Origin: Zygnema cylindricum
Taxonomy: Eukaryota; Streptophyta; Zygnematophyceae; Zygnematales; Zygnemataceae
Length of the DNA stretch: 64,000 nucleotides
Direction of reading: 5' to 3'
Assembly: GCA_037447655.1 (NCBI GenBank)
Contig: JBBHKE010001261.1
Span: 20,295-84,294 of the forward strand
Below, in pieces: positions 3,122-47,342 of the stretch. How positions within the stretch are numbered: position 1 is the stretch's first letter; every line of letters begins with the position of its first letter. The position numbers and the translations under genes are program-made. The notes beneath the pieces were generated by a model. It saw only the letters and a list, made by a program, of their open reading frames with translations. It had not been told where the DNA came from and ran no database searches.

Positions 3122-3248
3122 CGAATAAGGCCCTTATGCGAGGGTTATTTGAATGGCACAACTTGATGGAAAATTGCTAGTGTTGTGTATCGGTAGCCAT
3201 TTGTCAATAGCCGATATGCACCTTTTTTTGACGTAACGATAATCATAT

Positions 3249-3532
3249 TGTCGAGCGTGCTTGAGAAACATGAGAGAAGGGCCCACTGCCCGGAGTAGTC
3301 GGCATCAGAGTCCTGCAAATAACCCCCAAAATGCGAATGCTCTAAAAATATGATTATGCCCACTACTGCCCAAATCCCTCCCATATACATCCATGCAAAA
3401 TAGGGGAGACAATCAGACAGGTAATAGGAATGAGCGCATGGGATGGCGAAAATATATCTCCTCCCCCTTCTTTTCCCCACCTGGCCGGGGAAAGGGATTG
3501 GGTTCTTGGTAATTAAACCGGTGTCCCAATTT
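3249..3532 (-). repeat. Extra LTR segment b-prime, outer side of the left gypsy LTR
   Basis: This about 284-bp segment is repeated, with moderate divergence, at 4715-5003 on the other side of the 1182-bp LTR core. Both copies share GAGAAACATGAGAGAAGGGC, GGAGTAGTCGGCATC and GCAAAATAGGGGAGACAATC, and both end with GTGTCCCAATTT. The segment is absent next to the right-hand LTR. See the finding on circular permutation. Confidence 0.7.
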
Positions 3533-4714
3533 AGTTCTAATCCGCTGGAAGTAAGCCAAATGTGTCCTCAAAACCTAGTGTTATGGTACAAATGATTCTA
3601 CAAGTCTGTTCCGGCGGGATTGCCACCGAAGCAAAAGGAACTAGCAAAGAGGATCAAATAAACTTCCATGCAGAAAATAATAAAAATAAATAGAATTGGC
3701 TGTTTCAGATTTAACAATATCACCTTGCCCCAAAAAATGGAATGGACGATAAAATTAATAATGATAGCAAAGCAAGCTCAACATTCCCCGGAAAGCCAAG
3801 GTGACACAAAGAGAAGACGAAATATCCCCCTGTGCCACGAATGACATGTATGATCCTCCTTCACACCTCGATTTTCGTAGATCGGAACCGACTTGACTCT
3901 TCTCAATTTCAATGGCAAATGTCAAGATCGCCCAAAAGGATGGATAGTGCAAACTAACCGCCCGAACTACGACCTCCAAACAAGACAGATCCAAACCAAG
4001 ATGGCAATACAGTCAAGCACTCAAACAAGACACAGATTCTCCAAAAAAAGGTTTGTTTGGAATTTTCTGAGGGTTTTCACAGGAGATAGTACTGAAAAGC
4101 AACGTGTCTCCTTCGGCCCCAAGTGCCTTATACATCAAAGTTTGTCAAATCGTAGGTCCAAAAGTCAAAGCTGTTCTACTAGCCAATGAGCGACAAGCAA
4201 GTGTAATGGAACTGACTTGAGACAAATTAATCCGTACTACGCTTGGGGCAAAAGGTTATGCACCGGACTGCGGCTAGATTCGCGGCCGGAAGTAATTATT
4301 TGTTCCACTATTATAAGACAAAGAACTAAGAAAGACATAAAAGTGCCAGACGTTGACCTAAGGTAATAAATGGACCAAAAATCAGCTGAACCTGAACTGA
4401 ATTCCTATTGACAGCTAACAGCATAATTTGACAACAATCTGGAAGTTTACGTGGCAATCCACAATGTACCCCCCACTAGGGTAGGTGTAACTGGTCCCAT
4501 GTAACGGAATTGCAATCTGGGAGAGGGAATAGCTTGGTTGTCCGACCTCCGTTACGCGTGAAATAAAGTGCGTTTTGCTTAGTTTAGGAAATATAAGAAT
4601 CTCGTCCGACTGGGTACACTCCTTCCTCCGTACTTTGATGACCGTACAGGGGAGAAAGGGTCCGAAAATCCTTGGTGATATAAAGGTGTGCCTGTAAAGC
4701 ACACGAGCTTGACA
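3533..4714 (-). repeat. Ty3/gypsy left LTR core (3' LTR)
   Basis: 1182 bp, the same length as the right-hand copy 30753-31934, to which it aligns end to end with several percent divergence. Shared blocks include AGCAAAGAGGATCAAATAAA and CCTTCGGCCCCAAGTGCCTT. In element orientation it begins TGTCAAGC and ends near GAACT (GAACA in the other copy). Open frames inside (for example around 3893-4189) are shared with the right LTR and show no protein motif; they are LTR sequence, not genes. Confidence 0.8.
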
Positions 4715-5003
4715 GCTATCGAGCGTGCCCGAGAAACATGAGAGAAGGGCCCAGAGCCTGGAGTAGTCGGCATCGAAGTCTTGCAAATAACCTCCAAAAT
4801 GCAAATGCTTCCCATAAAAATGATTTTGCCCACTGTTACCCGCATCCCTCCCATAGACATGCATGCAAAATAGGGGAGACAATCGGACACGTAATAGGAA
4901 TGAGTGCATGGGATGGCGAAAAGATATCTCCTCCCCCTTCCTTTCCCCACCTAGCCGGGGAAAGTGATTGGATTCTTGGTAATTAAACTAGTGTCCCAAT
5001 TTC
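4715..5003 (-). repeat. LTR segment b, inner side of the left gypsy LTR
   Basis: Direct repeat of 3249-3532. In element orientation it directly follows a polypurine tract and precedes the 1182-bp LTR core. This is what would be expected if the full LTR is segment b plus the core, beginning TGGGACAC just after the tract. Confidence 0.65.
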
Positions 5004-5012
5004 CCCCCCTCT
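4999..5012 (-). other. Gypsy polypurine tract
   Basis: On the minus strand the run AAGAGGGGGGGAA lies between the integrase remnant and LTR segment b, where a plus-strand primer for reverse transcription is expected. It is adjacent to TGGGACAC, a plausible LTR start. Confidence 0.55.
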
Positions 5013-5127
5013 TAGGCAACTCTAACTAAGACATAAGAATAATTACCCGCCTAATTCGCAGTTCTTACAGAACCAGGCTGGGGGGTAGAGTGCGTGGTTC
5101 CCACGAGGAGGGGAGACAGGCGGGATG

Positions 5128-5830
5128 CTAACACTGACCGCACTCATGGCGGATCAAGACATTGCCCAGCTGAGAGGACACGCTGATTGTTGAGGAACAC
5201 AAAGGAGGGTCGGCAAAGTAAGTGAAGTGAAAAGTGGGTTCGTATTCCAATCCCCGAAGATGGCAAGGTGCCACATTGATCTGATTCTCCTTAATTTTCC
5301 GACCATCCTTTCCCTCTTGTGTTAGAACTCCCTTGTTGGAAACTTCTATCACTTTCAAAATCACCCGCCCTACAGAAATATCAAGCGTAATCTTCTTTTG
5401 TTGCATCCAATATATAAAGTCCCTTGGCATAAATCTTCGCTGCCTGGGCACATTATTCCTGCTCCGTCGCTGAGAATACCACAGCTGATCCCTGTGTTGA
5501 GCCGCCAGCAAATTCCGCATAGCGAGAGACATCTATTGGTGGAAGATCTTGGCTATATCGGCGATGATTTTCGACCGTTCCCTTGTCATCCATCTCCGAG
5601 AGGACCAGCGCTTGGGCGAAGGCAGCCCTGAGCAGGATGGGATGCCGTCCGAATAAAATGAAGTAAGGGCTATAAGAGTGCAGAGAAGCTTGTCTGCTAA
5701 ATCTGTATCCCATGGCGGTCCAAGGCACCATTCGGTCCCATTCTCCCAAATCTTCTTCCACTGCATATTTACGTAGTGACCTCTACAGTGTCTGTACGCA
5801 ACTTGGTCGCCTCTCCTAGAGAGCATCTTG
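5128..5830 (-). pseudogene. Ty3/gypsy integrase, C-terminal part
   Basis: Two minus-strand frames (5453-5761 and 5128-5532) follow one another with a frameshift near 5530. The first contains GEWDRMVPWTAMGYR and SYSPYFILFGRHPIL, matching the end of a Ty3 integrase core, where a Y/H-rich segment precedes a SPYFLLFGR-type motif. The second contains LLAAQHRDQLWYSQRR and the block TLDISVGRVILKVIEV ... GVLTQEGKDG ... NVAPCHL, the C-terminal beta-barrel (GPY/F-like) domain that binds DNA in the integration complex. The HHCC finger and the first catalytic aspartates are missing, because a copia LTR fragment adjoins the break at about 5806-5830. Clearly non-functional. Confidence 0.75.
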
Positions 5831-6213
5831 TATAAATGGCTAACTTTGGGCAGCCATAACTATCAATTTCTTGACCATTTTTAGTGATTATTTTTGCTGC
5901 GGACTCAAGGGAGTCCAAGCTACACAAAGGTGTAGTCGGTGAGAGTTTTTGTTTGCCAGGTTGGCTGCATTTCTAAGGGAAAGTCAAAGTGGGTGAATGT
6001 GTCCAAATCTCATATTCAAACTTTGCATTCTGTGGTGGAACCGAGCACACAGAAAGTGTTATTTCACAGGGGTGAATATATATTGGAGTTCTGACTGTCA
6101 AGGGGTCAGTCATTTGGGTTTATATCAACTTGGAGTCGGCACTATCTAGATTAGCTTCTTTTGGATATGCTTACTCTGAGGGCCAATGGAGGTCTCAGAG
6201 TTTCACTGACAAC
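5806..6213 (+). mobile_element. Truncated copia LTR
   Basis: The stretch aligns with the 3' third of the copia LTRs in this window. Shared features are CTCTCCTAGAGAGC near the start, GGACTCAAGGGAGTCCAAGC, AGAGTTTTTGTTTGCCAGG, and the terminal ATGGAGGTCTCAGAGTTTCA ending at 6213. That last 20-mer is the gag-start end of the A/D family LTR. It is not followed by gag sequence, and the 5' two thirds are absent, so it is a truncated solo LTR or a 3' LTR remnant. It lies where the integrase core and reverse transcriptase of the gypsy element should be. Confidence 0.7.
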
Positions 6214-6349
6214 TTCCGCTAAGTTGTTGCAATATGAGCCGCCGCCCCCCCCCCCCACTGGGAAAACCTGTTGTGGTGAAATGTGAATTTTTCTTCTCCT
6301 TTCTCTCCCCTCCTCAAGCTGCAAAGTTGCCTACATAGCTAACAACTGA

Positions 6350-7390
6350 GGAGCTTGAAGGTAGGTAGCACTTGACTTTTTGGATTGGAGACTGGAAAAG
6401 GCAAGAGCATGCTTTACCATCCAGGTGATTGCATTCAAATCCATGCTTTGCCCTATTAAGTTGCACCTCTAGATGTTTGAAATACTTGATGCGGCTGTGG
6501 TTCCCGCATTTAATCCCATGGCCTGCTCTCGTTCTGTGATTTTCGGTGTCGTCCCGATTTTTGCTGCACTATCGTAGATCATTCCAGTTGCTCCTTTCCG
6601 ATATGTGTGACTATGAGGAAAGGAAACTAATATAAGAAGTGCTCTGCGTGGACTTCTTGGTTGGTTGCATTAGAAGAACGGAGGACAGTATTTTTTCGTC
6701 ATGGGTGTTGCCATTCGCCCTTTTCGAGGATTTGCTACACAGAGTTTTGCGAGTCTGGGATTTGCCTTTCCAAGATTTTGTTGAGTGTTGGAAGCGAGAT
6801 TAAATTGGTCCAGTAAGATCGGACTCTGTGTGCGCAAGATCCCATCTGTGCTGCATCAAAGACCAATGGAGCCCCTAAAATCTGGGTGACCAGATTCTTG
6901 TTGTCGGCCACATGTCTTCGTTTATCATCTGTTGGGTGAACATTTTCTAAGACGTACCCCACTGGTGTGTTTTGGAGCTGTTGTAACTATGATTTTAACT
7001 GCACCATTGTAAAACATGTTTTACCCCTCCGATCGTGATGCCCTTTTCTTTGTCTTGCTAGGGAGTATCCTTGACAAGGCCATCTTGCCACCACCAAATG
7101 TACTCTTCCCAAACTGGTCAGATGAGGTGTCATGATATTTTCCACATTATGTGGGAGACTTCGGTGAGCTTTGGAAATTGCCGACACTGGAAGCTGTTGA
7201 GGATATAGGTTGTGAAGGTGTTGGAGGCGATATTGGCTGACAACTCGTGCTTCGGGTGATATCTCAACGGCTGTATACAATTCTACCGGATATCATGCTT
7301 TCAAAACGGCTTCCAGATCAGAAGTGAATCAAAAAAAATATAGATAAAACCCGGAGGCCTGAATCGGGAACAGTCAATGACACCACTTGT
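6350..7390 (-). pseudogene. C5-cytosine DNA methyltransferase inside the Ty3 element
   Basis: The minus-strand frames carry C5-methyltransferase motifs in the usual order. A degraded motif I region (LRVLSIFF, then SDLEAVLKA) is at about 7370-7290. VEISPEAR follows at about 7265. The catalytic-loop motif IV is LVVARWPCQGYS at about 7097-7062, with the PCQ cysteine present. Motif VI is YVLENV at about 6956-6939, and GSCAHRVRSYWTNL (motif VIII-like, AHRxR) is at about 6842-6801. Motifs IV and VI are in one frame separated by a single TAG stop (6987-6989). A frameshift lies near 7300, and the C-terminal part to about 6350 is weakly recognisable and full of stops. The AHRxRxxWxN arrangement resembles DNMT3/DRM-like or DNMTs reported in retrotransposons. 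It lies directly downstream of protease in the same orientation with no visible insertion boundary, so I infer it was part of the element. It can no longer be active. Confidence 0.8.
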
Positions 7391-7429
7391 CGGTTGAATT
7401 TTTCGTGTTCGGATATGGTCCCGGAAACA

Positions 7430-8308
7430 TCAGACCGGAGGTTTGAAACTGTTTCCTGTAGTGATAAAGCTGAGAATGTCTGATCCACTCCCCGCCGGAG
7501 TTTTGCCACGTCTATTAATCTGTTTTTGTATTCCTCTTCCTAGCGCTTGGTAATACGGAATTGCTAGATCTCCTTTGCTATATCTTTGTAGCTGGCAAAA
7601 AGTTCCGCCGGAAAAGAAGTTGCATACACCGGGTAGCAACCAGACATCGTGACATTGGTCTTCCCCCAGTTCCATAAGTTGAAAGGAACCACCACTTTGG
7701 TTCCTTCCGGATCCCGGGGTCCCGAACAGTACATTGTTCTTCCACACGCTTAACCCCATATTCAGCCATGTCCATGTGGTCATTCCCAACAAAATTTCAA
7801 ATTGAGTTATTTCAAACCTTAAGAATGGAAACTCAATTTTCAATTGTTCGCCTGCGTTATTGGAGAATTCAATTTTCATGGCTTTGATAATCGTATTGAC
7901 TAGCTGACTACCGCTGCTTACCGTGCTCAGGCAGATGTTGCTTAGGCAGATTTCTGGCCGGAGTTCTTTGGGCATTTTCTGTAAAGCGAGGTCGGTGGTG
8001 AGGTTGGGGAGCGCTTCGGTGTCGACAACAACGTCTTGATATCCTCCGTTCCCGTTGTGTATGAAATTTCCCGTTTGGTTTAGTATAATAGCCACTGATA
8101 AAGTTTTGTAGTCCCTATCCACCATAGGGATTTTCGGATCAGTAGACAAAAAGACGATTGTCGGTGGAGCTGCTTCGTCGACTCTCTCTTTCCCAGAGTG
8201 TATCTCTTCTCCCAATGCCTGAATGAGGATTTCTTCGGGCAGGTTGTGGGAGGATGCCAGAGTTTTGACGTGGGTTAGAGCGTAGGGCATGAGGTGCCGA
8301 ACTAGCAT
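7430..8308 (-). pseudogene. Ty3/gypsy aspartic protease region
   Basis: A 292-codon minus-strand frame. The retropepsin core is visible: VVVDTEALPNLTTDLA at residues 93-108 corresponds to the catalytic DTG/DSG loop, but the glycine is replaced by Glu (DTE). FEILLGMTTW at about 170-179 matches the second conserved ILGM-type strand. The enzyme would mature Gag-Pol of the element. A flanking stretch after about residue 200 is low in recognisable content and runs into the methyltransferase region through an overlapping frame (7318-7509). The altered catalytic glycine and the shift argue that it is inactive. Confidence 0.65.
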
Positions 8309-8314
8309 GATATC

Positions 8315-9351
8315 CTACTTGGAAGAAGGAAGTAGAGCTTTTGGTGAAGATGTTGGGGAATATGGTTCCTGCTGATTCTGCATTTTTCCTTCCTTTTTAT
8401 CACCATCGGAGCCAGAATTTGGTGTCGGTGGAGTTTGAGGAGTGTCACCGTCGGGGCATTCTGCCATATATCTCTCAAACCAATCCTTATTGCTTTGTTT
8501 TTCTCTTTCCAGTGACTCTTTTTCCAGCTGCTGTTTCTCAATCTTGTAGTTTTCGAAATCGAGAGGCAGTTTAGGTTTAGTAGGAAGAAATGACGGATGT
8601 GTGGGTTTAATTCCAAGGTCGATGTTGCTGTTGAGGATCACCTCCCGGGGAGTGAATGAGAAAGGCGCAGTAGCCTTCCGGTTGTGGTCCTTTTGACCCA
8701 TTCGCTTTTTGTCTTTTCTTTGTCGACGGTTATCTCCCACCCCTACATTATAAGCTCCATACAGGAAAGTTCGTCCATGGTGGGCATTTAGGGGTTCCCT
8801 ATCCCAGCCCAATATGTCGTCATCATTAGCACCCGCTTTGCTTTGAAGCTCAAGCTTGGCAAGCTTTTGTAACAACTCTTGCTTCTGTTTTTGGAGTCTT
8901 TGTGCTGAAGTGAGTGGTGCAGCGTGTGATGTGAATCCCAAGCGGAGGGCGGCCAATCCTCCGGCCATTGCGGCCAGCTGCTGGCTCTGCTGCTGAATAA
9001 TGGTTCTGGGGTAAGCCTTGTCGGAGCAACCGGTGCTCTTTCTGGTTCCTCTTGAGTGAGCAGAACTCTGCGTCACCAAGGGTAAAGAAGTTTAAGTGGG
9101 AGAGGGTTAACGACAGTTTCTCCTTCTCTAGTGAACACGGCAAACTGCATCATTTCTTTGGGTATTCTATTGTTGCGGAAGCATTGCCCTTCATTATGCC
9201 CCATGAAACCACAAGCCTCGGATTTCTATCCTTTGGAGGTATATTTGCTGCGAATTTCATTTGATATTTGGGCGTCATCAAACTTTGGAAGTTTGATTAG
9301 CCGCAGTTGGGATTGGGACATTTTAGATGTTTCGCTCTGGGGAGTTGGACG
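8315..9351 (-). pseudogene. Ty3/gypsy Gag C-terminal / nucleocapsid region
   Basis: The minus-strand frames between the copia L insertion and the protease include a zinc-knuckle-like CGFMGHNEGQC (C-x4-H-x4-C, near 9210; the first cysteine of a CCHC knuckle is replaced by Ser). A 254-codon frame (8315-9079) follows, rich in Gln, Lys, Glu and Pro with a predicted helical QRLQKQKQELLQKLAKLELQ stretch. This is typical of the linker between nucleocapsid and protease of Ty3 polyproteins. Frameshifts are present. The upstream end is the copia L target duplication (GGACG, 9347-9351). Confidence 0.55.
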
Positions 9352-10624
9352 TGAAATTCTATGGTCTCCATTGCCACACTGAAATCGCAGATCCAAAGAA
9401 GCTTATCTAGAAAGTGCCGACTCCAAGTTGATACAAACCCAAATGACTAACACCCTGACAGTCAGAACCCCAATACAGATTCACCATTGTGAAAACAAGA
9501 CCTTCTGTGTGCTCAGTTCCACCACGGAATGCAAACCTTGAAAAGGTGATTTGGGCAATATTCCACACTTTGACTTTCCCTTATAAATACCGCCACCTTG
9601 GCAGGCAAAATCTTTTATCGACTACACCCCTGTCTAGCCTGGACTCCCCTGAGTTCGCAGCAAAAAGAATCACTGAAATTGCTCACCCGAGCATTAAGTT
9701 TTGGCCGGCCAAAGATGGCCTATAAGTACATAAGCACTCTGGGAGAGAGGCGGTTACCTTGATTTTTTTCTAAGTCCTAAGCTCCCTCTCTAAACCTACT
9801 ACTTGTGTACCCTAACCAATCAAATGATTGTAAGGTACAAGAAAGTACAGGTACCGCTGTACTTCTTGTACGGCCATAGTACGACATGGCCGCTCCGCTG
9901 ACGCGTGTCAGTTCATGAGCTGTAGTTGCTCCCCTCGTAATATCCGCTATCTAACCATATCATGCCACGTGTCGTCTGCCGACATTGGCTTGCAAACCGC
10001 CAAATGTCCACTTCGGTGCTTCGGCCCCACTGTGAGACGTCGGATATGAAACCGACAAGTAATCGCGTCCGTTCAAATAGAGTGTCGTTTTGTTTCGTAA
10101 TCCGCGAAATAGAGTATGTAGATTGGTACCACATTTAAATACAATTAGAACTCAGAATATATATCGTTTTGTTTAGCTTTAGTGGATAAGGTTAAGTGCT
10201 ACATCACTCTGTAGACCTAGGTTCAAATCCCACTAAGGTCACCAATACATTTTAGATTACACTTGTCAATATCTCTATCTCCCTCTTTGCGTGGTAATTA
10301 TTTATATTGAAAAAACCCATCATCTTTATCTCTCGATCTACACATATAGGTTAGTTCTTTCGTCTATATGACCAATCCACAGACCCCGGTTCAATTTCAG
10401 TTTTTTGTGTATATATTTTGGCAGACTATCATCTTAACCCTCTTGCTTGTCTCCCTGACTATCTGAGGGCAGCCATAGAGTTTCTTCTGTCTCTTAGTGA
10501 CTACGACAAGTTTATAGAGATAGAAGTATTTCTAGGCACCATGTAGAAACTTTGAAAAACCTTTTAATACTATTTGTCAAACACATAGAAAAATACAGAC
10601 CTAGGAAATACATAAATTTTAACA
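9352..10624 (-). repeat. Copia L 3' LTR
   Basis: 1273 bp. In element orientation it ends with ATGGAGACCATAGAATTTCA, so the gag ATG lies 20 nt inside the LTR. It is longer than the other copia LTRs here (about 1034-1049 bp). It contains an antisense tRNA-like module at about 10179-10243 (A-box-like TAGTGGATAAGG, B-box GGTTCAAATCC). Confidence 0.75.
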
Positions 10625-10637
10625 CTCCCCTTATTTT

Positions 10638-11501
10638 CTAGTCAACTTTTCTTTCAACTCCAACCAAAAACATTTCCTTTTTTTTTTTTCCTTTCTCCTC
10701 ATAAAACTTTGATTGAATACCCTCGTTTTTAAAGAAGTGTATTAGATGAGCCGAAATAAATATTGCATCTTGTTGATCATACATGCCACTTTTCATAAAT
10801 CCGAGCTTTTGGAGCAAGGATTTTATTAACCTCATCCCTTTTTCATCCGAGCAAAAACCAATTTTCCGCTTGCAATTCAAAAAGCCAGCCCCATCCCCAA
10901 CTTGCAACACATACCCAGATGTGAACCCTTTTACAGGCACACCTTCATAAATGGCATCACTCCCTTTAGTGATGTCAAATCCATTAACCCCTAAATTTAT
11001 CCCTAAATCAAAAGTCCCCACTAAGTTCCTCATAAAATCTACATCTACTGTACTCATATATTTGTCCAAGATAATTACCCCATTTTCTAAACTTCCCTCA
11101 CTCTCTCCCATGGAATTCTTTCCACTATCACTTTCTATTTTGATTCCCAATAAATATTTCTCCTCCTCTAAACTTTTCATTAAATATTCCTCCTCTCCCC
11201 TATCGTTTAAAACCCCCTCTAGATTTACTTCTCCCCTTTCCTCGGAATCCGTTGAAGTCTCCCTTTCCGACCAGTTTTCTCTTTCCAAAATATCTATAAA
11301 ATTATCCTCAATATTTTTATTTTTCCCTTTTTCAATTAAGGATCTTAGATCTGTCTTTCTCATTTCTAAGTCATACTTTCTACACCCCTTGACATCCTCA
11401 TCATGTCTAACTCTCTCAAATACCTCCCTTCCCTTTACTTCCCTTATACCACCAAAAGCACACTGTTGCTTTCGTGGAATCTTTGTGTTGTCATGCCGCA
11501 T
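10638..11501 (-). pseudogene. Copia L pol remnant with internal deletions
   Basis: One 287-codon frame joins pieces that lie far apart in an intact copia polyprotein. IPRKQQCAFGGIR precedes the protease, DEDVKGCRKYDLE follows the integrase, LEEEKYLLGIKIESD is the end of reverse transcriptase, and FTSGYVLQVGDGAGF belongs to RNase H. The protease core, integrase and the catalytic part of reverse transcriptase are absent. The frame stayed open although it is not a functional enzyme. This may be a non-autonomous derivative, or deletion may simply have been frame-neutral by chance. Confidence 0.75.
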
Positions 11502-13140
11502 CTCGTCGGCTATTTTAGTTGTTTATATTTGGGTGTTAGGACGGGCAGCCGCTACACTAATTTGTATTTGGGTATTATTTGGGTTTCGCAAGACCGTACG
11601 ACGTGTACCGTACGACCTACATTTTCCGTGATTTCCGGGATGGCGATTTGGATCGTACCCGCGGTCCTACCGTACGACGTATAATTTCCGCGATTTCCGT
11701 CGACGGCGGATTTGACTATTTCGCGTCGACCGTACGACTTACGGCGACCGAAATTCCCGGGGCCACAAATTGGACCGTACTTGCGGTCCTGCCGTACTTA
11801 TTTATTTTTTCTGGATTTCTTGCCGACGACACATTTTCGAATTGCGTCAAGACAAACAAACTTACCGTACTATATATATTTTGCGCGATTCTCGCCGACG
11901 GTAGCTTCGATCATTTCACGTCGACCGTACGACTTATATTTTCCGGAATTCGCGCGACGACAAAGTGGCCCGTATCTGCGGTCCTACCGTACAAGCTTTC
12001 ATTTCCTTGAATCCCGGCCGACAGCAAAACTTAATCATTTTGCGTGGAGTAGCATCTCGACCGTCGACACAAAGTATGCGATTTTTGTAATATCACATCT
12101 GGACCGTCGACGCAAGTGACAGACAAATCGACTGTCAATTCTGACGAAGCGACGTCATTGGACTATTTAAAGTCGTGAACCATTTGGAGGTTCACGCATT
12201 CACATGTAGATAGGAAGGGTTTTAATCCGTAGGTTATAGATTCTGTAACGTAGGGCATAGGATTTCGGCTTCCTATTGGCTGAATCCAAACTAGACGCAA
12301 ATATTTACATAGCACGCTGTACTCTGATTGGCTTGTTTTTGCTAGGCGTAGTTTTGGTTACTTAGTTCATTTCGCATCATTTCTTGCACACAATTTTCAA
12401 GTGCAGGAATTATTCATTTGATTTATTTTCAGTATTGAGGATTCTCTGCAGCCATCTATTCATTTGTAAAATTGTCCGGACAGCTTAGAGGCGATTTTCT
12501 GCCTTTGCGTGAAGTGTCTAGTTTTCTATTACATTATCAATATCTTGTAAAGCCTTACAAATTAATCTATACGGCTTCGGCCAAAACCTACACGGTTTCC
12601 CTTCACTTTTCTCGTCCTTTTGAGTGGATTTCGGCCGTGTTCTCACTACACAAACCTCTTTTCCCGGCTGTGGCTGAGCTTTTATTAGTGTGGAAGTTGC
12701 ATGTTGGGATTATTGATTTGTTTTTTTTATTTCTTGAGATTGTGTATTTATTTCTATTTGGCTTATGCGCATCTTTTGAGTTTGGCTATCTCAAACTTCA
12801 TAAGTGTCGTGCATATTGTCATTTTCGATTTTTATTTATCTTTCTCGGTTGTTTATGCTTTGATTTATTTTATTTAAGTATAAATTCAGATTATCCTTGA
12901 TAAGATAACTCCTGCAAGGAATATAAATAGACCGTGGGGCCTAGTGGTCATCCATGGGCTTAGTGGGGGATAAACCGACCTAACCATAACCAGCTAAGTC
13001 GTTGACCTTTCTTTTTCTTCCACCTTGCCTGTTGTTGTATTTACCCATTTTTACTTTTATGATTTATTTCATTTCCGATATCTCGCTATCATTTGAGTTT
13101 AAGTTGAGCAGAGTTGATGATATTGCATGCATCTTCATGT
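11502..13140. mobile_element. Unclassified insertion in copia L with 195-bp tandem repeats
   Basis: Sequence between the protease remnant and the zinc-knuckle part of copia L gag that has no counterpart in the other copia copies. From 11540 to about 12060 it is relatively GC-rich, and about two and a half copies of a roughly 195-bp unit are visible. Recurring blocks are GCGGTCCTACCGTAC (near 11661, 11785 and 11978) and GTCGACCGTACGACTTA (near 11727 and 11921). Later parts contain TATA-like and CT-rich stretches and a 142-codon frame (12472-12900) with no recognisable domain. I could not define termini or a target duplication; a solo LTR of another family is the simplest guess. Confidence 0.45.
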
Positions 13141-14316
13141 TATTTGACACATGCACGACAGTGTGCTTTTCTCTCTTCTCCATTCTACCGATGCGGAGAA
13201 GCTCCAAAATATCTTCATCCTCTTTCTCCTCTCCCCCTTCTTCCTCCTCATTCACATTCCAACTTCTAAGTTCTTCCAAATAAGGGCATTCCTCCATATA
13301 GTGACCCGGTTCCCTACAAAATAAGCAAAGCAAACCCCTCCTTTCGAAGCTCCTCCTTCTTTTCCTTTCCGTCTCTTTCCACCAAAGTTACGATAGGGTT
13401 TACCTTTGTTTTTTTTCTTGTCATTACGCTACCGCCAGTCACCATTATTTCTCTCATCACGCTACCGCCTGTCACCACCATTTTTATATCACGCTTTCGC
13501 CAATCACCACCAGCTCTCGATGCATTCACCATGTCACTTCCCTACGAAGCTCCAAAATGCTTTCCCTCACAAGAATCATCCCAATGGTAATGCTCCAAGT
13601 CGATGAGGAGCCATCTTTTTCCTGCATACGGTTAATTATGTTTTCGTACTCATTTGGGAGTTTCATTATTAGTGTGTTAATCTTTCTCTCCTCAAATTCT
13701 ACATACCCTACACTAGCAAGCTCAACATACAACGCAACAATATCATTTCAAAACTCTATCATGCTACCATTTTTATAAACATAGGCCTTTATTTCATGTT
13801 TTACTTATTGCTGCCTATATATAGTCTCACTCTTATAAATCTGAATTAGTGTTTCCCATATCTTTGCGGACTTGGTTAAGTTTATAAGAGTGATAGCTAT
13901 GGACTTAGACACGTTTCTAAGTATGAGATGTTTTGCTATAATGTTTTTGTATTCCCATATTTTTATGTCATTTTCTTCAGTTTTTGGTTCAGTTATAACC
14001 CCTACAAGTGAAGTTGTAGCCGAGAGCCTAGCTCCCCTCACCATAGGTGTTCCTTTTCCCTTTTCTATTTTTTCCCTCTTCCATGGCAATGATTTTCTCT
14101 TCACCTTCTATTACATCTGATCCCCGGTTGGTTTTCTGGAAAGCCCCAGATGAATCTCCATAGTGAGTTCCACCAAAGCCGGGTGGCCGACATCTCACTT
14201 GTCTCGAAACAATTCCCCACAAGTGTTTTTCGAAAAGCAATCCCTCCATTGTAAATTCCAAATAAGTTAAGTCTGTTCCATCAAACATAGGCACCCTAGA
14301 TGGTGGGCCCATAACC
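13064..14316 (-). pseudogene. Copia L gag remnant
   Basis: In element orientation it begins MGPPSRVPMFDG, the conserved Gag start of every copia copy here. It continues through weakly conserved capsid sequence to a zinc knuckle, CLFCREPGHYMEEC (C-x2-C-x4-H-x4-C), at about 13330-13280, followed by an acidic E/D stretch. The start codon inside the LTR is changed (CTG in place of ATG in the 5' LTR), and several frameshifts split the frame. Not functional. Confidence 0.75.
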
Positions 14317-14649
14317 TAAAATTCTATAGGCTCCAGATCCAAAGAGCTTATCTAGATAGTGTTGACTCCAAGTTTATACAAACCCGAATGATTGACACCC
14401 TGACAGTTAGAACTCCAATACAGATTCACACTTGTGAAAACAAGACCTTCTGTGTGCTCAGTTCCACCACAGAATGCAGTTGACTATCTAAGGGCAACCA
14501 TGGAGTTTCTTTTTTCTCTCAGTGACTACGACAAGTTTATAGAGATAGAAGTATTTCCAAGCACCAAGGAAAAACTTTGAAAAACCTTTTAATACTATCA
14601 GTCAGACATATAGAAAAATACAGACCTAGAAAATACATAAATTTCAACA
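14317..14649 (-). repeat. Copia L 5' LTR, internally deleted
   Basis: 333 bp. It retains both outer ends of the 1273-bp partner (TCTAGATAGTGTTGACTCC near the gag side, CAGACCTAGAAAATACATAA near the U3 end), but about 900 bp of the middle, including the tRNA-like module, is missing. Confidence 0.75.
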
Positions 14650-14654
14650 GGATG

Positions 14655-16330
14655 GTAGGTGTCTTTGGTCACGGGTGTTTTCTCTCCCCCCCCCCTTCTC
14701 CTTTGAGCCGTTCCTGTTGTTTCCTAGTCTTTTCGGCTCTTTCTTTCTCCCACTCTTTTTGCTTGAGTGCGAGTTTTGGTTTGAGTTTCCGGGGGCAGAT
14801 TTTCCACCCGTGGCGTGTTTGCTGGCAATTCAGGCAATTAAACAAAATCATCCTGTCATCAGCCCCCATGGCTCGTTCTGATCCGCTATCAGCCACCTGT
14901 TTAACTTTAAGCTTCCGCAAAGCTTGAAGTTCTTCTTGTTCTTGGTTGCTTAAAGAAGTTTCTCCGACAAATATGGTGAAGTTTGCTCTAGCCTTGCCGG
15001 TGACAACCTTTTCCCGAGCCTCGTTGTGGACGAAATGGTCGTACAATTTTATGGCCACCGGGGAGATTTCCTTAACCAAGGGATTAATGTCTTAGATTGC
15101 CTTCCCTACAATCGAATTATCTAGAGAAGGTTGCCCCGTAGGTTCGAACGAATTTCAGACAGCGATGAAATATTTGGTTGCCATTGCAGGAAGGTCAATA
15201 GTTGACAGTTTTGTCTCCTATAAGAGGCTGGAGAGCCTTTTTAAAAGTGTTTGCGGGGTCTCATTTTTCAAACATCGGAATTCCGTGAACTTTTTAATGG
15301 TGGACTTGTTCCTCTCGGTGTAGAGGAGTCTCCATCTGTTAAGCAGAGTAGTAAAAGGGTAAGGAATTGCGACCTTGCGAGTTGCAGCCTGGGCTGCCTG
15401 AATGGCTTGCAGATGATTGACATAGGCGGTTCCCTGTGCTTGTAGTTTCATGTCTGCTGTAAAGGTGTGCTTGTAGTTTCATGTCTGGTGTAAAGGTGGA
15501 AGACACAGGGGTCTCCCCTGCCGCAGCCAAGTCAGCCTCCGCTTGTAAAATCGCCGCATCGAGAGCTGGATCCGAGATCTTGATGCTATGAGCCATCAAG
15601 AGTGGCTGTCCCTCCTTGTAGTCTGCCAACGCCCTTCCAAAAAGGTAGTTGACCATCATAGGAAAAAAGGAGGTTTCATAATCATCTGGAATGGCCCCTC
15701 CCCTGTATTTGTTGATTTCAGATTGTGTGAAAGATTTCTACAGCAACTCAAAATCAGAAAAGGCGATCCCCGAGCTATCTCTGGTGAAGATCTTGACGTC
15801 CCCCATTTCCTTTTCCTCCTCTGCAAGGTTGGTGCACTCTGGAGAGGCTGGTTTGGTGGGGCTGATAAACTAAGCCGGTGAAATTGCTCTGGGATCTGCC
15901 CCTTCTAGATTTAAACCTGTTTCTCCTCTGGGTGAAACAGATGGGACCCCCCCCCCCCCCCACTGAGGATGGTCTTGCTGTCAAAGGAGGTGTAGAATCT
16001 CTTACTCCTCTATATCCAGGAGAGTATGGTTCCTCTCTTAGAACTGTCTCCAACGATAGGATATGGAGACGAGGTCTGTTCAGAGGTGTTGGTGGAATGG
16101 ACGGTGGCAGAGACGGGGATAGAGACTACTGGGGCCCGGTTGGATAAGGCGTGTGTCTCTGTGTTCGCCTTTTTGGATGTCTCGAGAGGTGGAGTTCTGG
16201 AGCTGGTGGAAAGAGAACGCTTCTGAGGAGGGGAGTAGGCGGGAAAGTCGTATTTGTAGGGTAACTCAGGTGGGTTAGGTGACCCACGGACTGCTGCAGC
16301 AAGAGAATAAGAGGGCGAAGGAGAGGAGGA
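14655..16330 (-). pseudogene. Ty3/gypsy Gag central part (capsid and zinc knuckle)
   Basis: The minus-strand frames include a Retrotrans_gag-like block at 15451-15218 (RWRLLYTERNKSTIKKFTEF ... NETPQTLLKRLSSL), where a helix is followed by the usual GETP-like turn. Downstream, in the frame 14669-15079, is a zinc knuckle CLNCQQTRHGWKIC (C-x2-C-x4-H-x4-C), followed by a Lys/Glu-rich tail. Gag would package the element RNA. Several stops and a poly-C slip at about 15951-15961 break the frame. It is bounded by the target duplications of copia L on the left and copia B on the right, so it continues at 22648. Confidence 0.7.
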
Positions 16331-17315
16331 TGTTGAAAATAAGTATTTTCTAGGTCTAAATTAGATAAAAAATGAAGAGAGCACAAGCAGTCTCTCTCCA
16401 CCTCTCTCTCCATCCCCTATACTTGTTGTAGTCAATGAAGGAGAGAGAGAGAGAGAGTAGTGGAGCCATGGCTGCCTCAGCTCAACTTGTGCAGGACTAA
16501 AGAGTGACCTTAGTCACTCTCAACAAAAGGTTCGTCCGGCATGACTCGAACCCCCGACCGGCAGAGGATGGCGTAGCCGTCAGCTCTAACCGGTCTATCG
16601 TAGAAGTTTGCTAGAGTATATAAGGTTTGATAAATACTTAAATAGTGTTACGGTAGTTAAATACAGACATAAGTACATGGAGCGGATTAAATACAGTACG
16701 AATATGATTCCGCACGAAATATGATTCCGCACGAAACAAATGAATCAGACATTTATTTTGAGGGTTGAGATCAAATACGAAATTCTATCCTACGACGCAC
16801 GTCATCGCCGCGATCCCGGAATGGTCACTTTGGCATTTAGTGACGTGGCATGAACTAGCGCCACGTGGAGACATAACATTCGGTCGCGGGAATTCCGACG
16901 AACGTACGGACGAGTGAAAAGTGGACACGCGTCCACTTAATATCCTTGTCGTACATAGGCCATACAAAAGGTATACAGGCAGTAGTACTTTTTGGTACAG
17001 TACAGTATTGTGATTGGTATGTACTTCAGTAGATAGGAGTTATTAGAGGGAATCAGGATTTTGGTAGGCAATCACCTCTCTCTTTGAGAGTTTGTACAAA
17101 TTGGCATTTTTATTGCCTCAGAACTTATTGCCTGGTTGGGCGTTTTTACAGATTCTTTTTCCTACGGACTTAGGGGAGCCCAAGCTGCACAAGGGTGCAG
17201 TCAAGGTGTTTGCTTGTGTGATTGGGTAGCAGTGGTTGCTATTGAAAGTTGGTTAGTTAGTAACTATCTAGAGGCTTCTTAAATTCTGTAGTCCAATGGA
17301 GGACACAAAATTGCA
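16331..17315 (+). repeat. Copia B 5' LTR
   Basis: 985 bp, TG at the start and CA at the end. It contains a GA-rich run (16438-16457) and an antisense tRNA-like module at about 16530-16610. On the minus strand that module has GGTTAGAGC (D-arm-like) and GGGGGTTCGAGTC (T-arm/B-box-like) about 35 nt apart. Confidence 0.8.
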
Positions 17316-20300
17316 GGTTATGGGCCCACCCTCTAGGGTGCCCATCTTCAATGGATCGGGGTTTATCTATTGGGAAGCCATGATGAGAGGGGCTTTGTGT
17401 GAAAAACGATACTGGAGTATTGTTAGTGGACAAGTGAAACTTCCACCTCAAGGAACACCACCGGGATTTGGTGGAATAAGGTTTTTTGTACCAACAACAG
17501 ATGCAGCAAAGGAGGCAGATGATGGGGACAACAATGTGTCTGAAAAGGGGAAAGAAAAGGAGACACCTCTTACTCCTATTGCTCCTATTCCCACGACACC
17601 CGGAGCGGCGATCGTGAAGACCGTGGAGACCGACACTTAAATGTGGGAAGACACCAACATGGCTGCCAAGAACTTCATTCTCAGACACCTCACACATGCT
17701 TTGGCAACTCCTCGCCTTCATGTTTACAAGGCCGAGGAGTTGTGGGTGAGTTTGATAGAGATCTATAGAGCATGTACAATTCAAGAGCTTTAGTTGGCAG
17801 AACAAAAGTTGGGAAATTATACTTACAAAGGGGGAAAGATGTTAGACTACTACAATGATCTTTCTTGTTTGTATATAGAGTGGAGAGTGCCGGGTAGACA
17901 GATACAATGAAGATGAAGGTTAACACTCTCATCATGAAAATACCCGCCGAGTATAAGAATATAGTGTTCAAAGTACAAGAAATAACTGATAGTTCATAGA
18001 AGTGGAATACAGTGGTCCGCATGATAGTTGTGTAAGAGAACACGATTGAAATCAGGATAGGAGGAAAGAGCATTCAAGCTCTAACCGCCGAAGGGGACAA
18101 GTAGAAACCGGACCCGCAAAAACCATACAAAGGAGAAAGAGTTCAGCCGAGAATACCGAGGCCCCCAAATAGCCTATGTCATTTTTGCAAAAAGTCGAAC
18201 ACTTTATCACGGATTGTGTCAAGCTATCGGAGCTGAGGCTCCAAGAGAACTATGGAGAAGGTTCTTCCGGAGGGAAGAAAAAGACACTTTTGATCACAAA
18301 GGTGACAGAGAGATCGAGGACGAGTCCTCTGAGGAGGATGGGGAACTTCTTCTTAACGAGAGTCTAGAGGAGAAGGAGATCCCTTAGAGACAAATGTGTG
18401 CCCTTGGAGCAATTCGGGAAGCTCCAGAGGAAAGATGGATCATCAACTTAGGTGCATCCATGGATATGTGTCGTGACAAGGACCTCTTCACTAAGCTAAG
18501 GAAAATCCCTACTATAGAAATAGAGTATGGGGATGGGAGAGTGGTTACTACAGATCTAGTGGGATCAGTAGATCTGAAAGTCTTAGTAGAGGATAAGACT
18601 TCTAAACTCACTTTCTCAGATGTGCTCTATATTCCTGAGCTGAGTAAAAATCTTGTCTCTACATCTGTGTTAAATGACAAAGAGTTTGATATCTTCACTA
18701 GAAAAGGAGTCTTTACAGCTAAGCATGGGGATGAAGTTTACTTCACTGTAGATAAGGGAAGCCAAGGAACATTTAGGCTTAACCTGAGTAATGAAAAGAA
18801 GAATGCTTACTATGTTAGTGTACCAAAATTGATGATTTGGCATAAGCGATTGGGGCATGTGAATTTTGATAGGTTGAGGGAAATCAAAAAAACTTGGTGA
18901 AGTAGAAGGCATTCAGTTCACTTATAATGAAATGGTGAATGATTCTAGTGGTTGTGCCCAAGGTAAAGCTCACAAACTTCCTTTCCCTAAAGCCGCCACA
19001 TATAGGGGAGAAAAGGTACTAGATTTGATCCACACAGATATCTGGGGACCAGCAAGGGTACCATCACTAGGAGGGAAGAGGTATATGTTGACAATTACTA
19101 ATGACTAGGCCAGATATTCTAGAGTCTACTTCCTAAGATCCAAGTCTGAAACACCAACTTACTTCAAAGAATATAAAGCCTAGAGTGAGAAGTTGCATGG
19201 AACCCCCAATAAAAGAATAAGGAGTGATAACGGGGGAGAATATAACTCTTACCAGTTTGAGGAATACTTGAGAGATGAGGGAGTTTAGCACCAAAAAGTT
19301 GTACCACATAATCCACATCAAAATGTAGCTGAGAGGTTAAACCGAACACGAAGAGATAGTGTAAGCAATATGTTGGATGACAAGAAAATATGAAAGAGAT
19401 TTTGGGCAGAAGCCATGAACTGTGCCAACTATATTAAGAATAGAGTCCTTACCTCAGCAGTCAAAGGTATGACACCTTATGAGAGATGGGTTGGAAAGAA
19501 ATCGGATATCTCTCACCTTAAAGTATTTGGTAGCCAAGTTTACATACTAGATACGGATAATAAAAACTGCAAACTTGATGCTAAGGGAAAACCCTGATAT
19601 TTTGTAGGATATGATGAGGATGTCAAGGGACATAGAGTATATGTCTTAGCAAAGCAAGATATCTTTTTGCTCAAACACCTAGTTGTCATCGATGAAGGAA
19701 AGTCAATTGACCCCTTCAAATATACCAAAAAGATAAGAATCAGGTTTGAGTCCGAAAGTGAACTCTGTTTTTCTAGAAAAGGACATGAGTGAGACAGTGA
19801 TTGCAGATTCAGCGGAGATTTAAGAAAAAGGAAAGTTACCGGATACCTCACATATTCCTATGGACTTGGAGGAGACAGAAGTGGAGAAACCGGACCCAAC
19901 TTCCGTGGTTAAAGGAGACGATAAAACAGTAAGGAGAAACCGAAAAATTCCCTCTATTCCAACCTCAGAGTTTGATGGAGGAAGAAGGAGCAGCAAAAGG
20001 ATACAAGAGAAACAAGTTGCTCGTAAGGTAACAAAGCTATCTCATCCTGAAGAGCCTCAGTCATACTTAGAGGCAGTGAACAGCGCAAAAAAAGACAGAT
20101 GGATTAGAGCCATAAATGATGAGATGGCTTCCATCATGGAAGCAAATACTTGGGAGCTAGCAGATTGTCTTCCAGACAGAAAAACTATTGGCTGTAAATG
20201 GGTATTTAAACAAAAACTGAACCTAGATAATACCATTGAAAGATATAAGGCTCGTTTGGTAGCAAATGGGTTCACCCAAAAGGAGGGGATTGACTATGAG

Positions 20301-21642
20301 GAGACGTTTGCTCCAGTTGTTCGGTTCCCATCAGTAAGGATTCTCCTTAGTCTGGCAGCAGCGGATGACATGGAAATACATCAAATGGACATTAAGACCG
20401 CTTTCCTCAATGGTGAGTTAGTGGAAGAAATCTTCATGCGGCAACCGGAAGGGTTTGTGGAGAATGAGGAAGAGAGCAAAGTTTGTAGGCTGATAAAGTC
20501 ATTATATGGACTTAAGCAGGCTCCCCGACAGTGGAATAAGAAACTAGATGAGTTTCTTACTAGTCTAGGATATATTCGGGTCAGCTCTGACCATTCTATC
20601 TATATGTTTGAAGATGAGGATGGTGTGATTTTTATTGCAATTTATGTGGATGATCTGCTGGTGTTAAGTAAATCTTTGGAAAAGATCAATAAGTTAAAGA
20701 AATATCTTAGAAGCAAATTTGACATGAAGGATTTAGGGGAGGCAAGATATATATTTGGGGATCCAAACGGAAAGAGATAGGGGGAAAAAGATCGTTAGAC
20801 TCACTCACAAAGAAGCAATAGGAAATATGCTTGAGAAATTCTAGATGGAGAGAGCAAACAGTTGTACCACTCCCATGGACTTGAAAAAAGTAAGTGATGG
20901 GAGTGTAGAAGGAGTGATAATCTTAGATGATCAGATGAGTCCAGAGGAGAGAGAGTTAATAAAGTCTATTTCTTACAAACAGGTCGTAGGAAGATTGATA
21001 AACTTTATGAACTATATATGACCGAACATAGCGGCAGCAGTACAATTCCTCAGTAGGAGTCTTAATGATCCTAGAAAGAGGGATAGGGAGGTTGCCAAGA
21101 GAATCATGAGATATCGGGTAGAAACCAGAGAGTTGTGGATGCATTTGGGAAGAGAGCACACTGATATCACCACTTGGAGTGATGCGAGTAATGGGGATGC
21201 ACATATAAGAAGATGCACTTCTGGATATGTTCTGTATGTGGGTGAAGGTGATTGCTGTTGGAACAATAAGCAACAAAAGGTGGTTGCTCAGTCTACTATG
21301 GAGGCTGAGTATATGGCCTCTTGTTCTGTTGTAAAAGAATTTATGTGGGTCAAGTCATTATTGTAACAACTGGGGTATATGAAGGAGGGAGTGTATGAAG
21401 TCTTTTGCAATAATCAAGCTGCAATTGCAATTGCAGCCAATCCAAAACATCATTTCAAAGCTAAACATATGGACATAAGATTGAGCTTCGTGAGAGAAAA
21501 AGTTGAAAATATAATTTTAAATCTTGTGTATAGACTTGATGAAGAAATGGTGGCTGACATGATGACCTAACCTGTGCCCTCTCCTAAACTAAATATTGTA
21601 CGGAAAAATGCGGGTTGAAAGAAAAATTAAAACTAGACTAGA
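17296..21642 (+). pseudogene. Copia B gag-pol, multiple stops
   Basis: Recognisable in order: Gag start (QVMGPPSRVPIFNGSGF), a degraded zinc knuckle near 18180 (CHFCKKS...), protease (near 18430, WIINLGASMDMC; the catalytic DSGA is changed to NLGA), integrase HHCC (HKRLGHVNF near 18840) and SDNGGEY (near 19230). The reverse transcriptase is largely open at 19860-20780, with YVDDLLVL at about 20644-20667, and RNase H (WSDASNGD, STMEAEYMA) follows near 21180-21320. Many stops replace Trp, Gln or Arg codons, for example in the TDDW motif near 19107 and the KAWSEK motif near 19183. Dead element. Confidence 0.9.
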
Positions 21643-21654
21643 AAATAAGGGGAA

Positions 21655-22647
21655 TGTTGAAAATAGGTATTTTCTAGGTCTAAATTAGATAAAAAGTGAA
21701 GAGAGCGCAAGCAGTTTGTCTCCACCTCTCTCTCTCCATCCCCTATACTTGTTGTAATCACTAAAGGAGAAAGAGAGAGAGAGTAGTGAAGCCATGGCTG
21801 CCTCAGCTCCACTTGCGCAGGACTAAAGAGTGACCTATGTCACTCTCAACAAAAGGTTGAGTCCGGCAGAACTCGAACCCCCGACCGGCAGAGGATGGCG
21901 TAGACGTTAGCTCTAACTGGTCTCTCGTAGAAGTTCGCTAGAGTATATATGGTTTGATAAATACTTAAACAGTGTTACGGTAGTTATTCGGATTAACGGA
22001 AATACAGACATAAGTACATGGAGCGGATTAAATACAGTACGAATATGATTCCGCACGAAACAAATGAATCAAACATTTGTTTAGACGATTAAGATCAAAT
22101 ACGAAATTCTATCTACGGTGCACGTCATCGCCAAGATCCCAAAATGGTCACTTTGGCATTTAGTGACGTGGCATGACCTGGCGCCATGTGGAAAGATAAC
22201 ATTCGGTCGCGAGAATTCCGAGGAACGTACGGACAAGTAAAAAGTGGACACGCGGTCGCTTAATAGCCTTGTCCTACATAGACTGTACAAAAGGTACACC
22301 GGCAGTAGTAATTTTTGGTACAGTACAGTATTCTAATTGGTCCGTACTTCAGTAGATAGGAGTTATCAGAGGGAATCAGGACTTGGTAAATTTTGGTAGG
22401 CAGTCACCTCTCTCTTTGTGAGTTTGTACAAATTGGCATTTTTATTGCCTCATAACTTATTGCCTTGTTGGGCGTTTTCAGAGATTCTTTTTCCTACAGA
22501 CTCAGGGGAGTCCAAGCTGCACAAAGGTGCAATTAGATTGTCTGTTTATGTGCTTGGATAGTAGTGGTTGCCATTGATAGTGGGTTAGTTAATAATTATC
22601 TAGATGCTTCCAGAATTCTGTAGTCCAATGGAATACACAGAATTGCA
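21655..22647 (+). repeat. Copia B 3' LTR
   Basis: 993 bp, preceded by the polypurine tract AAAATAAGGGGAA (21641-21653). Several percent divergent from the 5' copy with small indels, so this is an older insertion than A, C or D. Antisense tRNA-like module at about 21855-21940. Confidence 0.8.
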
Positions 22648-22920
22648 GAGGCGTGAGGTGATGATGGTGGAGATTGTCAAGCAAGAGAAGCGAGAGGAGT
22701 GGATGGCCTCAAGGGAATGTGAATCCTTTTATCAAGTAGTAATACCACCAAGGCTTCCACTGCTAAAGCGTCCTCCACCGAAATTACAATTTACGCTCCA
22801 CGAGAAGAAGCATCAATGTCAAGAAGTATAGCTGCACCCAAACCCTTCTCATTAGGTCTTCTGGTTTCACCCCCTTCCCGATGAAAAGGGGTATCCAGGT
22901 TTGTCTCCGAGGGAGGCATC
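22648..22920 (-). pseudogene. Ty3/gypsy gag fragment between copia B and A
   Basis: A 273-bp strip of gypsy sequence isolated between two copia insertions. It begins with the copia B duplication (GAGGC) and ends with the copia A duplication GCATC (22916-22920). No domain can be named. By position it joins the gag segments at 14655-16330 and 29375-30752. Confidence 0.6.
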
Positions 22921-28307: not shown

Positions 28308-28320
28308 AAAATAAGGGGAG

Positions 28321-31934: not shown

Positions 31935-32230
31935 ATATTGGTTCGATATATTCGTAAAGGAATTATCGTGATCGGACTGATAACTCTTGACTCTGTTATG
32001 AAGAAGAATCTAGTATCTCCTCCCCTCGCGATATCATCTTACTCATTTCTTTTTTTTTAGAGTACGATAATTTCATACTCCTTGTACGGACGACCCCTCC
32101 AAACGATAATTATCGGCGATACTTTAGTTTTATTGGTGCCGGAGTGATATATCGGAGCTCCACACCGTTTGATAACCGATAATAACAATTATCGGATTCA
32201 TCTCGATATATTCTCCGATACACAACACTA

Positions 32231-37644: not shown

Positions 37645-37657
37645 CTCCCCTTATTTT

Positions 37658-47337: not shown

Positions 47338-47342
47338 CCTCT

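Follow-up and report, generated by a model that had tools for sequence, protein, structure and literature searches.

Does the cytosine DNA methyltransferase (DNMT) sequence found beside retrotransposon genes in this window, the whole 64,000-nucleotide stretch of Zygnema cylindricum DNA analysed here, belong to the retrotransposon, and what might the element use it for? An earlier note, made from the letters alone, had placed a DNMT at 6350–7390 inside a Ty3/gypsy element. The motifs on which it relied (VEISPEAR, PCQGYS, LENV and AHRVRSYWTNL) are present in two minus-strand open reading frames, 7292–6987 and 6986–6735, which share one frame and are separated by one stop codon. The first frame gives a weak match to PF00145 in Pfam (E = 0.0012, 18.8 bits, cut-off 22 bits) and the second gives none. 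Since Pfam alone is weak, the identity of the DNMT is settled by homology to relatives: the first piece (101 aa) has a best non-self match in its own genome at 77% identity (E = 1.5e-44). A chance match of motifs is ruled out by genome-wide homologues together with tblastn mapping of the protease (PR) and the DNMT.

We mapped the window by tblastn with E1374, a relative whose Pol frame is open (contig C1374, loci L035 and L038). The location given for the DNMT was right and the interval too short, as homology spans 6196–7563. The assignment to a gypsy element with a DNMT likewise stands, with an element larger than had been seen (3249–31934), which has terminal repeats, ATAT duplications and gag in pieces up to 30634. 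The parts are as follows.

3249–31934, minus strand: whole gypsy-DNMT element including later nested insertions, termini TGTC...GACA
3245–3248: target-site duplication ATAT on the 3′ side of the element
31935–31938: target-site duplication ATAT on the 5′ side of the element
30754–31934, minus strand: terminal repeat A (5′), 91.2% identical to A′, K2P 0.090
29430–30634, minus strand: first part of the gag region (tblastn with E1374 ORF1 as query)
23577–29282, plus strand: nested Ty1/copia element interrupting gag, with a direct repeat of ~305 bases at each end and near-complete Pol frames (RVT_2 E ~1e-84)
22644–22907, minus strand: gag fragment flanked by nested insertions (tblastn with the relative)
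16324–22648: second nested stretch, with copia reverse transcriptase and a direct repeat pair
14681–16330, minus strand: next parts of gag, 16330–16006 and 15977–14681 (tblastn with the relative)
9352–14656: third nested stretch interrupting gag
8423–9351, minus strand: end of gag (9351–9160) and the region after it (8997–8423) (tblastn with the relative)
7567–8389, minus strand: aspartic protease region, by homology to the relative's ORF (Asp_protease_2 E = 1.7e-4, below cut-off)
6196–7563, minus strand: DNMT3-type cytosine methyltransferase, broken by one in-frame stop and frame breaks
5811–6217: inserted copia-LTR-like repeat at the place of the missing RT-RNaseH-IN(N), an inverted relative of 9340–9747
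5083–5827, minus strand: C-terminal part of the integrase (tblastn with the relative)
5046–5084, minus strand: PHD finger remnant, the end of the C-terminal finger (tblastn with the relative)
5003–5009, minus strand: polypurine-tract-like G-run adjoining B
4719–5002, minus strand: internal repeat B, B-to-A′ junction GATAGCTGTC
3534–4714, minus strand: repeat A′ (3′)
3249–3532, minus strand: terminal repeat B′, 88.4% identical to B

The copy is dead, as had been proposed. Besides the in-frame stop, the DNMT frame is broken near 7350 and near 6710 in the tblastn alignment to an open-frame copy, and residues 469–1261 of the relative, comprising the reverse transcriptase (RT), RNaseH and the N-terminal part of the integrase (IN), have no tblastn match in the window. 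The K2P distance of 0.090 between A and A′ indicates that the copy is old, and the Ty1/copia insertions that split it came later. The inverted repeat 5811–6217/9340–9747 was considered as an end of the element itself and rejected, as it matches copia-LTR-like repeats elsewhere in the window. We put the probability that the window holds an old, dead Ty3/gypsy retrotransposon copy carrying a DNMT3-type cytosine methyltransferase at about 0.93.

Viewed alone, the window copy, broken and without RT, could look like a host DNMT gene or retrocopy that landed by chance inside one gypsy copy. We searched the whole genome (352.8 Mb, 2689 contigs). The first DNMT piece gives at least 150 scored matches of 1010 candidates, and PF00145 gives at least 123 scored places of 782 candidates, each above the cut-off; combined, the two lists hold at least 247 places, some of which could be host DNMT exons. 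The RT search gives at least 150 scored matches of 3106 candidates, and at least 71 of these 150 have a listed DNMT 1175–1683 bases (~1.3 kb) upstream on the same strand. The count of 71 is a lower bound, because the DNMT lists used for pairing comprised the 150 rows of the DNMT-piece search and only 25 rows picked from the 123 PF00145 rows. When every seventh of the other 79 RT matches was inspected (n = 12), DNMT sequence, whole or partial, was present upstream in 10. Family copies without a DNMT, the case that would speak for a later chance insertion, are thus the exception (two of the 12, L065 and L071, have no DNMT sequence upstream of RT). Neither does the DNMT group with a single-copy host gene; it is multi-copy and, in a tree with human DNMT3A as the only outside row, groups with retrotransposon-type DNMTs, including a Klebsormidium one. 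With at least 247 DNMT places, a fixed position relative to RT and one frame common to both in open copies, a chance landing is practically negligible as an explanation, and the DNMT is carried by the gypsy family.

For 12 of the 123 scored PF00145 places, the match is free of stops and the surrounding frame has 800 codons or more; six of these 12 frames were inspected and contain no N. A 5743-codon frame at C961 was rejected, as it is an N run. In-frame stops in the at least 150 DNMT matches are mostly TAG (47 TAG, 17 TGA and 19 TAA, counted by hand), possibly from decay of CAG at CHG sites or only from Gln-rich sequence.

Intact relatives, whose existence elsewhere in the genome the earlier note had anticipated, encode DNMT, RT, RNaseH, IN and a PHD-like finger in one open frame, and the order gag-PR-DNMT-RT-IN is common to several copies of the same family. 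In family A, to which the window copy belongs, the frame ending in the PHD-like finger has 1525 and 1520 codons (L034 and L035), and gag and PR lie upstream in frames broken by stops. In family B, L031 has a single frame of 2395 codons with DNMT, RT, RNaseH, IN and a weak zinc-knuckle match, and L033 and L036 have in addition an aspartic protease match below cut-off. A third subfamily (L003, L018, L021 and L030) has DNMTs 57–59% identical to that of family A. The Ty3/gypsy Pol order PR-RT-RNaseH-IN, with RVT_1, RT_RNaseH and rve, is found in the open-frame relatives, the window copy being without RT. The nine frames scanned for the tyrosine recombinase PF00589 gave no match; the integrase is of the rve type. 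The finger was recognised by eye at the end of E544, E1374, E1344 and E829, and the related proteins P0008, P0015, P0022 and P0070 have a PHD match in Pfam. C1374 (L035 and L038) carries two copies (97.6%) of the 3′ end, each running from the PHD codons through B, separated by ~3.7 kb.

The few pairs compared indicate that purifying selection has probably acted on the DNMT. For L034/L035, dN/dS is 0.135 for the DNMT and 0.101 for RT; for L031/L033, the DNMT has a dN of 0.166 with saturated dS, and RT a dN of 0.042; the nearly identical L031/L032 give 0.317 from a handful of changes. These estimates are informative in few pairs only, as the estimator gave no dS for distant pairs.

Against PDB chains, profile A1 matches DNMT3A best (1e-25), followed by two chains named only DNA methyltransferase (4onj at 1e-13, which we take to be tobacco DRM), DRM2 (1.9e-10), HhaI (5e-9) and DNMT2 (1e-6 to 1e-7); the 57 matches include none named as DNMT1 or CMT. 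By this profile, the enzyme is a non-rearranged C5-methyltransferase of the DNMT3 class. An AlphaFold model of the Closterium relative P0048 is poor (pLDDT 54); in its fold search, the best 50 of 109 matches (E ≤ 0.001) are all DNMT3 entries, with TM-scores of at most 0.57 and identities of 14–21%. The element DNMT thus resembles host DNMT3A/B in motif order, profile score and the fold matches of this weak model, and differs in being fused to Pol, with no ADD or PWWP seen. Among the 15 proteins listed by a profile search aimed at host DNMT3 genes, none bears the name of a host DNMT.

Open copies keep motif I, the motif IV Cys, EN, RxR and the C-terminal R..LG motif. Motif IV reads PCQ in the window and in family A. 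In family B, Glu replaces Pro before the catalytic Cys in all eight loci in which the motif can be read without a stop (L015, L016, L025, L029, L031, L032, L033 and the partial L036). As L015/L031 and L016/L032 are the same places, these are six distinct copies. In the other two family-B loci, L004 and L005, the domain contains one stop, and L004 reads X-ECQ. ECQ is also found in the Closterium proteins P0025, P0042 and P0048 and in most rows of a second architecture with the order RT-DNMT-IN. In the DNMT tree, the distribution of ECQ and PCQ needs four changes, at least two of them forced by well-supported branches. This tree holds 11 of the 24 full-domain genome rows, with human DNMT3A as the only outside row, and leaves out P0032, P0034, P0040, P0041, P0042, P0044, P0045, pieces no longer than 300 aa and the 15 proteins of the profile search.

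Two architectures occur. DNMT and RT were both located in 60 of 100 rows (58 database proteins and two of this genome), 13 with DNMT before RT and 47 with RT before DNMT; the 40 rows without a located RT stand outside these counts. An RT tree of 24 rows, from which matches shorter than 250 aa were left out, has two groups (100/99) that coincide with the two domain orders in 24 of 24. Outside this tree, Haematococcus lacustris P0070 has the order RT-DNMT-IN, with RT, IN and a PHD finger, and its DNMT is found through BLASTP rather than Pfam. A second H. lacustris protein, P0097, shows retro-DNMT similarity as P0070 does.

DNMT and RT distances correlate across 23 elements (Mantel r 0.81, with 0 of 2000 permutations as high), which favours a probable old capture inherited together with RT. 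The earlier report of DNMT-bearing gypsy elements in a charophyte is that of KnitGypsy-Dnmt3 from Klebsormidium nitens (de Mendoza et al. 2018, PMC5890265; published elements are compared here through the accessible parts of the papers). A capture independent of the Klebsormidium one could be argued from the long branch of the K. nitens rows in the DNMT tree and from an identity of only 42% over 72% of the query. The PR-DNMT-RT position is the same, RT distances are correlated and DIRS-like repeats occur in both lineages, and we regard independent capture as improbable.

On its sequence features, the window element is KnitGypsy-Dnmt3-like, with a Dnmt3-class DNMT inside Pol and DIRS-like repeats. 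As far as the accessible text of PMC5890265 goes, KnitGypsy-Dnmt3 shares a Dnmt3-type DNMT in the Pol frame, DIRS-like repeats with gypsy domains and purifying selection, and the K. nitens protein P0035 has the same order, DNMT-RT-IN. The present elements differ in that copies are probably more numerous (those of K. nitens being fewer than the hundreds of Symbiodinium), in the several subfamilies including the ECQ one, and in the target duplications and junctions described below. They differ also in the PHD-like finger after IN: the term PHD is absent from the main text of PMC5890265 as accessible, and Pfam calls no PHD in P0035, a partial protein. SymbioDIRS-Dnmt3 and SymbioLINE-Dnmt (PMC5890265, accessible part) are likewise retroelements with a DNMT, with A-coding-B-A-B in the DIRS type, and carry a tyrosine recombinase or a LINE endonuclease rather than the DDE integrase seen here. 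Unlike DIRS, the element family has an rve integrase and target duplications instead of a tyrosine recombinase without duplication. In their accessible parts, PMC12344493 repeats that retrotransposons of streptophytes and dinoflagellates carry DNMT3 and names Copia and DIRS; PMC6338049 describes DNA-methylase transposons in green algae and charophytes, absent from land plants such as tracheophytes; and the passages retrieved from PMC6453930 include none on DNMT-bearing elements.

Four Marchantia proteins (P0003, P0005, P0013 and P0017) are DNMTs of similar type, at 40–45% identity. By eye, P0003 shows zinc knuckles and a stretch resembling a protease; Pfam calls PF00145 only, and there is no RT in its frame. 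These proteins may point to land-plant elements of this kind, which PMC6338049, in its accessible part, describes as absent, and are leads rather than proof.

Because family A has a CpG o/e about that of the window and family B a higher one, there is no sign of CpG decay through self-methylation: the ratio, computed on loci including flanks, is 0.67 in two family-A loci, 0.65–0.72 in three pieces of E895, 0.88–1.10 in four family-B loci and 0.70 in the window. C-to-T type changes between A and A′ of the window are commonest at CHG (19/154, vs CHH 27/675 and CG 11/162); those between B and B′ number 9/38 at CG, 7/33 at CHG and 4/201 at CHH. The pattern in the window fits decay that would follow host CHG and CG methylation. 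In E449, the highest share falls on CG (18/168), with CHG at 4/74 and CHH at 20/470.

We think that the likeliest role would be self-methylation with PHD-guided integration. Specifically, the DNMT would travel with Pol and methylate either the newly made DNA of the element or the site at which it lands, while the PHD finger would guide the integrase to a chromatin mark. From domain logic, from constraint and from dinoflagellate retrotransposon DNMTs published as active in yeast (PMC5890265, accessible part), we give methylation of new DNA roughly even odds; the Klebsormidium enzyme had no activity in yeast, a result called inconclusive by de Mendoza et al. in the same text. The replacement of Pro by Glu in the catalytic motif makes the activity of the family-B enzyme doubtful. 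The DNMT could accordingly be kept for something other than DNA methylation, such as binding or methylation of element RNA or a structural part in Pol, with the family-B enzyme weak or dead. ECQ in the six distinct family-B copies, its recurrence on well-supported branches and the lack of CpG depletion would agree with this alternative, which we consider unlikely, since the catalytic Cys, EN and RxR are kept in open frames and PCQ is retained in family A, the window's own family.

How such an element integrates is a further question, raised by its ends. Identical long terminal repeats at both ends were not seen; the copies have split repeats A...B-A′-B′ instead. E1344, E829, E895, E449 and the window have the order A-coding-B-A′-B′. 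B-A′-B′ is seen in E1407, with no A in the stretch examined, and in L047 (weak, 79%), L054, L056 and L058, of which the 3′ part only was fetched. Of 13 family-B 3′ stretches fetched blind, nine (L046, L048–L053, L055 and L057) have no B...B′ pair; in L049, L051 and L057 the element seems to stop after one B, which fits a one-repeat circle or later B/B′ recombination. E544 has no split repeats within 15.5 kb and has a copia insertion at its 3′ side.

All four copies with both ends clear have TG...CA termini and short target duplications, namely 4-bp duplications around A...B′ (window ATAT, E1344 TTGG, E829 AAGG and E895 AAGT); in the older E449, the flanks match in three of four duplication bases. 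The A/A′ K2P distances of E1344 (0), E829 (0.003) and E895 (0.006) mark these three as apparently young insertions, vs 0.090 in the window. B is immediately preceded by a G-run in the window, E1344, E829, E895, E449, E1407, L054 and L056, and has one nearby in L058; L047 has none before B. In five copies read by eye (the window, E1344, E829, E895 and E449), no tRNA-like primer site (TGG start) adjoins the end of A.

The internal B-to-A′ junction carries a well-conserved palindrome, GACA-GC-TGTC. It reads GACAGCTGTC in seven of 11 copies (E895, E449, E1407, E1374, E1344, E829 and L056), is off by one base in the window, L047 and L058, and by two in L054. The A′-to-B′ junction varies by a few to ~12 nt among related copies (e.g. 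E829 vs L056, and E1344 vs L058); mutation could explain the 12-nt difference, as it comes from the older copy L058 (B/B′ 91%).

A conserved palindrome at one junction beside variation at the other suggests that the integrase cuts a circular intermediate. Plus-strand synthesis from the G-run before B would yield a reverse transcript B-A-coding-B-A; the ends of this linear transcript, with its long repeats B+A, would be joined into a circle; and the integrase would cut the second GACA^GC^TGTC palindrome with a 2-base stagger, giving A-coding-B-A-B with processed integrase ends. We propose integration from such an integrase-opened circle tentatively, as a possibility short of even odds.

In the split-repeat mechanism proposed for DIRS/PAT elements, internal repeats template the joining of cDNA ends. 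A DIRS/PAT-like origin, in which internal B-A′ would template exact end joining, A′-to-B′ would be inherited from the parent and an integrase would have replaced the tyrosine recombinase, would yield the same circle and has in its favour an A-coding-B-A-B order that is that of DIRS (PMC5890265, accessible part). Inheritance of A′-to-B′ is the opposite of what related copies show, B-to-A′ being conserved and A′-to-B′ more variable, in a comparison of few young pairs; we judge this origin rather unlikely. Returning to the circle opened at the palindrome, it can be combined with the features above into a picture of green-lineage gypsy elements with a built-in chromatin kit (DNMT and PHD-tagged integrase) that would integrate from such a circle, not from linear DNA, and would have turned PCQ into ECQ repeatedly, with altered chemistry or target. 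This composite picture is speculative, and it is doubtful that it holds as a whole.

The C-terminal PHD finger, the 4-bp duplications around A...B′, the B-to-A′ palindrome, the recurrent Pro-to-Glu change and the RT-DNMT-IN order were not found in the literature searched, as far as its accessible parts go; in the mostly open literature screened by title and the start of the abstract, no treatment of PHD fingers, ECQ, target duplications or Marchantia copies was recognised. A finding from one charophyte alga is thereby extended to another genome, which holds a large number of copies that differ in age, and a concrete model is offered for DIRS-like repeats without a tyrosine recombinase. With many copies of different ages at hand, it becomes testable why a transposon keeps an enzyme that usually silences transposons.

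Other features were observed alongside. A second Ty1/copia element lies at 36683–42389 of the window, with ~305-bp ends and RVT_2 at E ~1e-84, its Pol being one frame of 1454 codons. Positions 47332–48066 (plus strand) match DUF659 (E = 3.8e-23), which is typical of hAT-like transposase genes. The genome gives 27 matches of 28 candidates for GRAS genes, with coding split over frames; as GRAS genes are known from land plants and Zygnematophyceae, they make a streptophyte host probable, presumably a zygnematophyte alga. A search of the genome for rbcL gave 0 candidates. The segment 11600–12000 of the window has local direct repeats rich in words like cgaccgtacgac.
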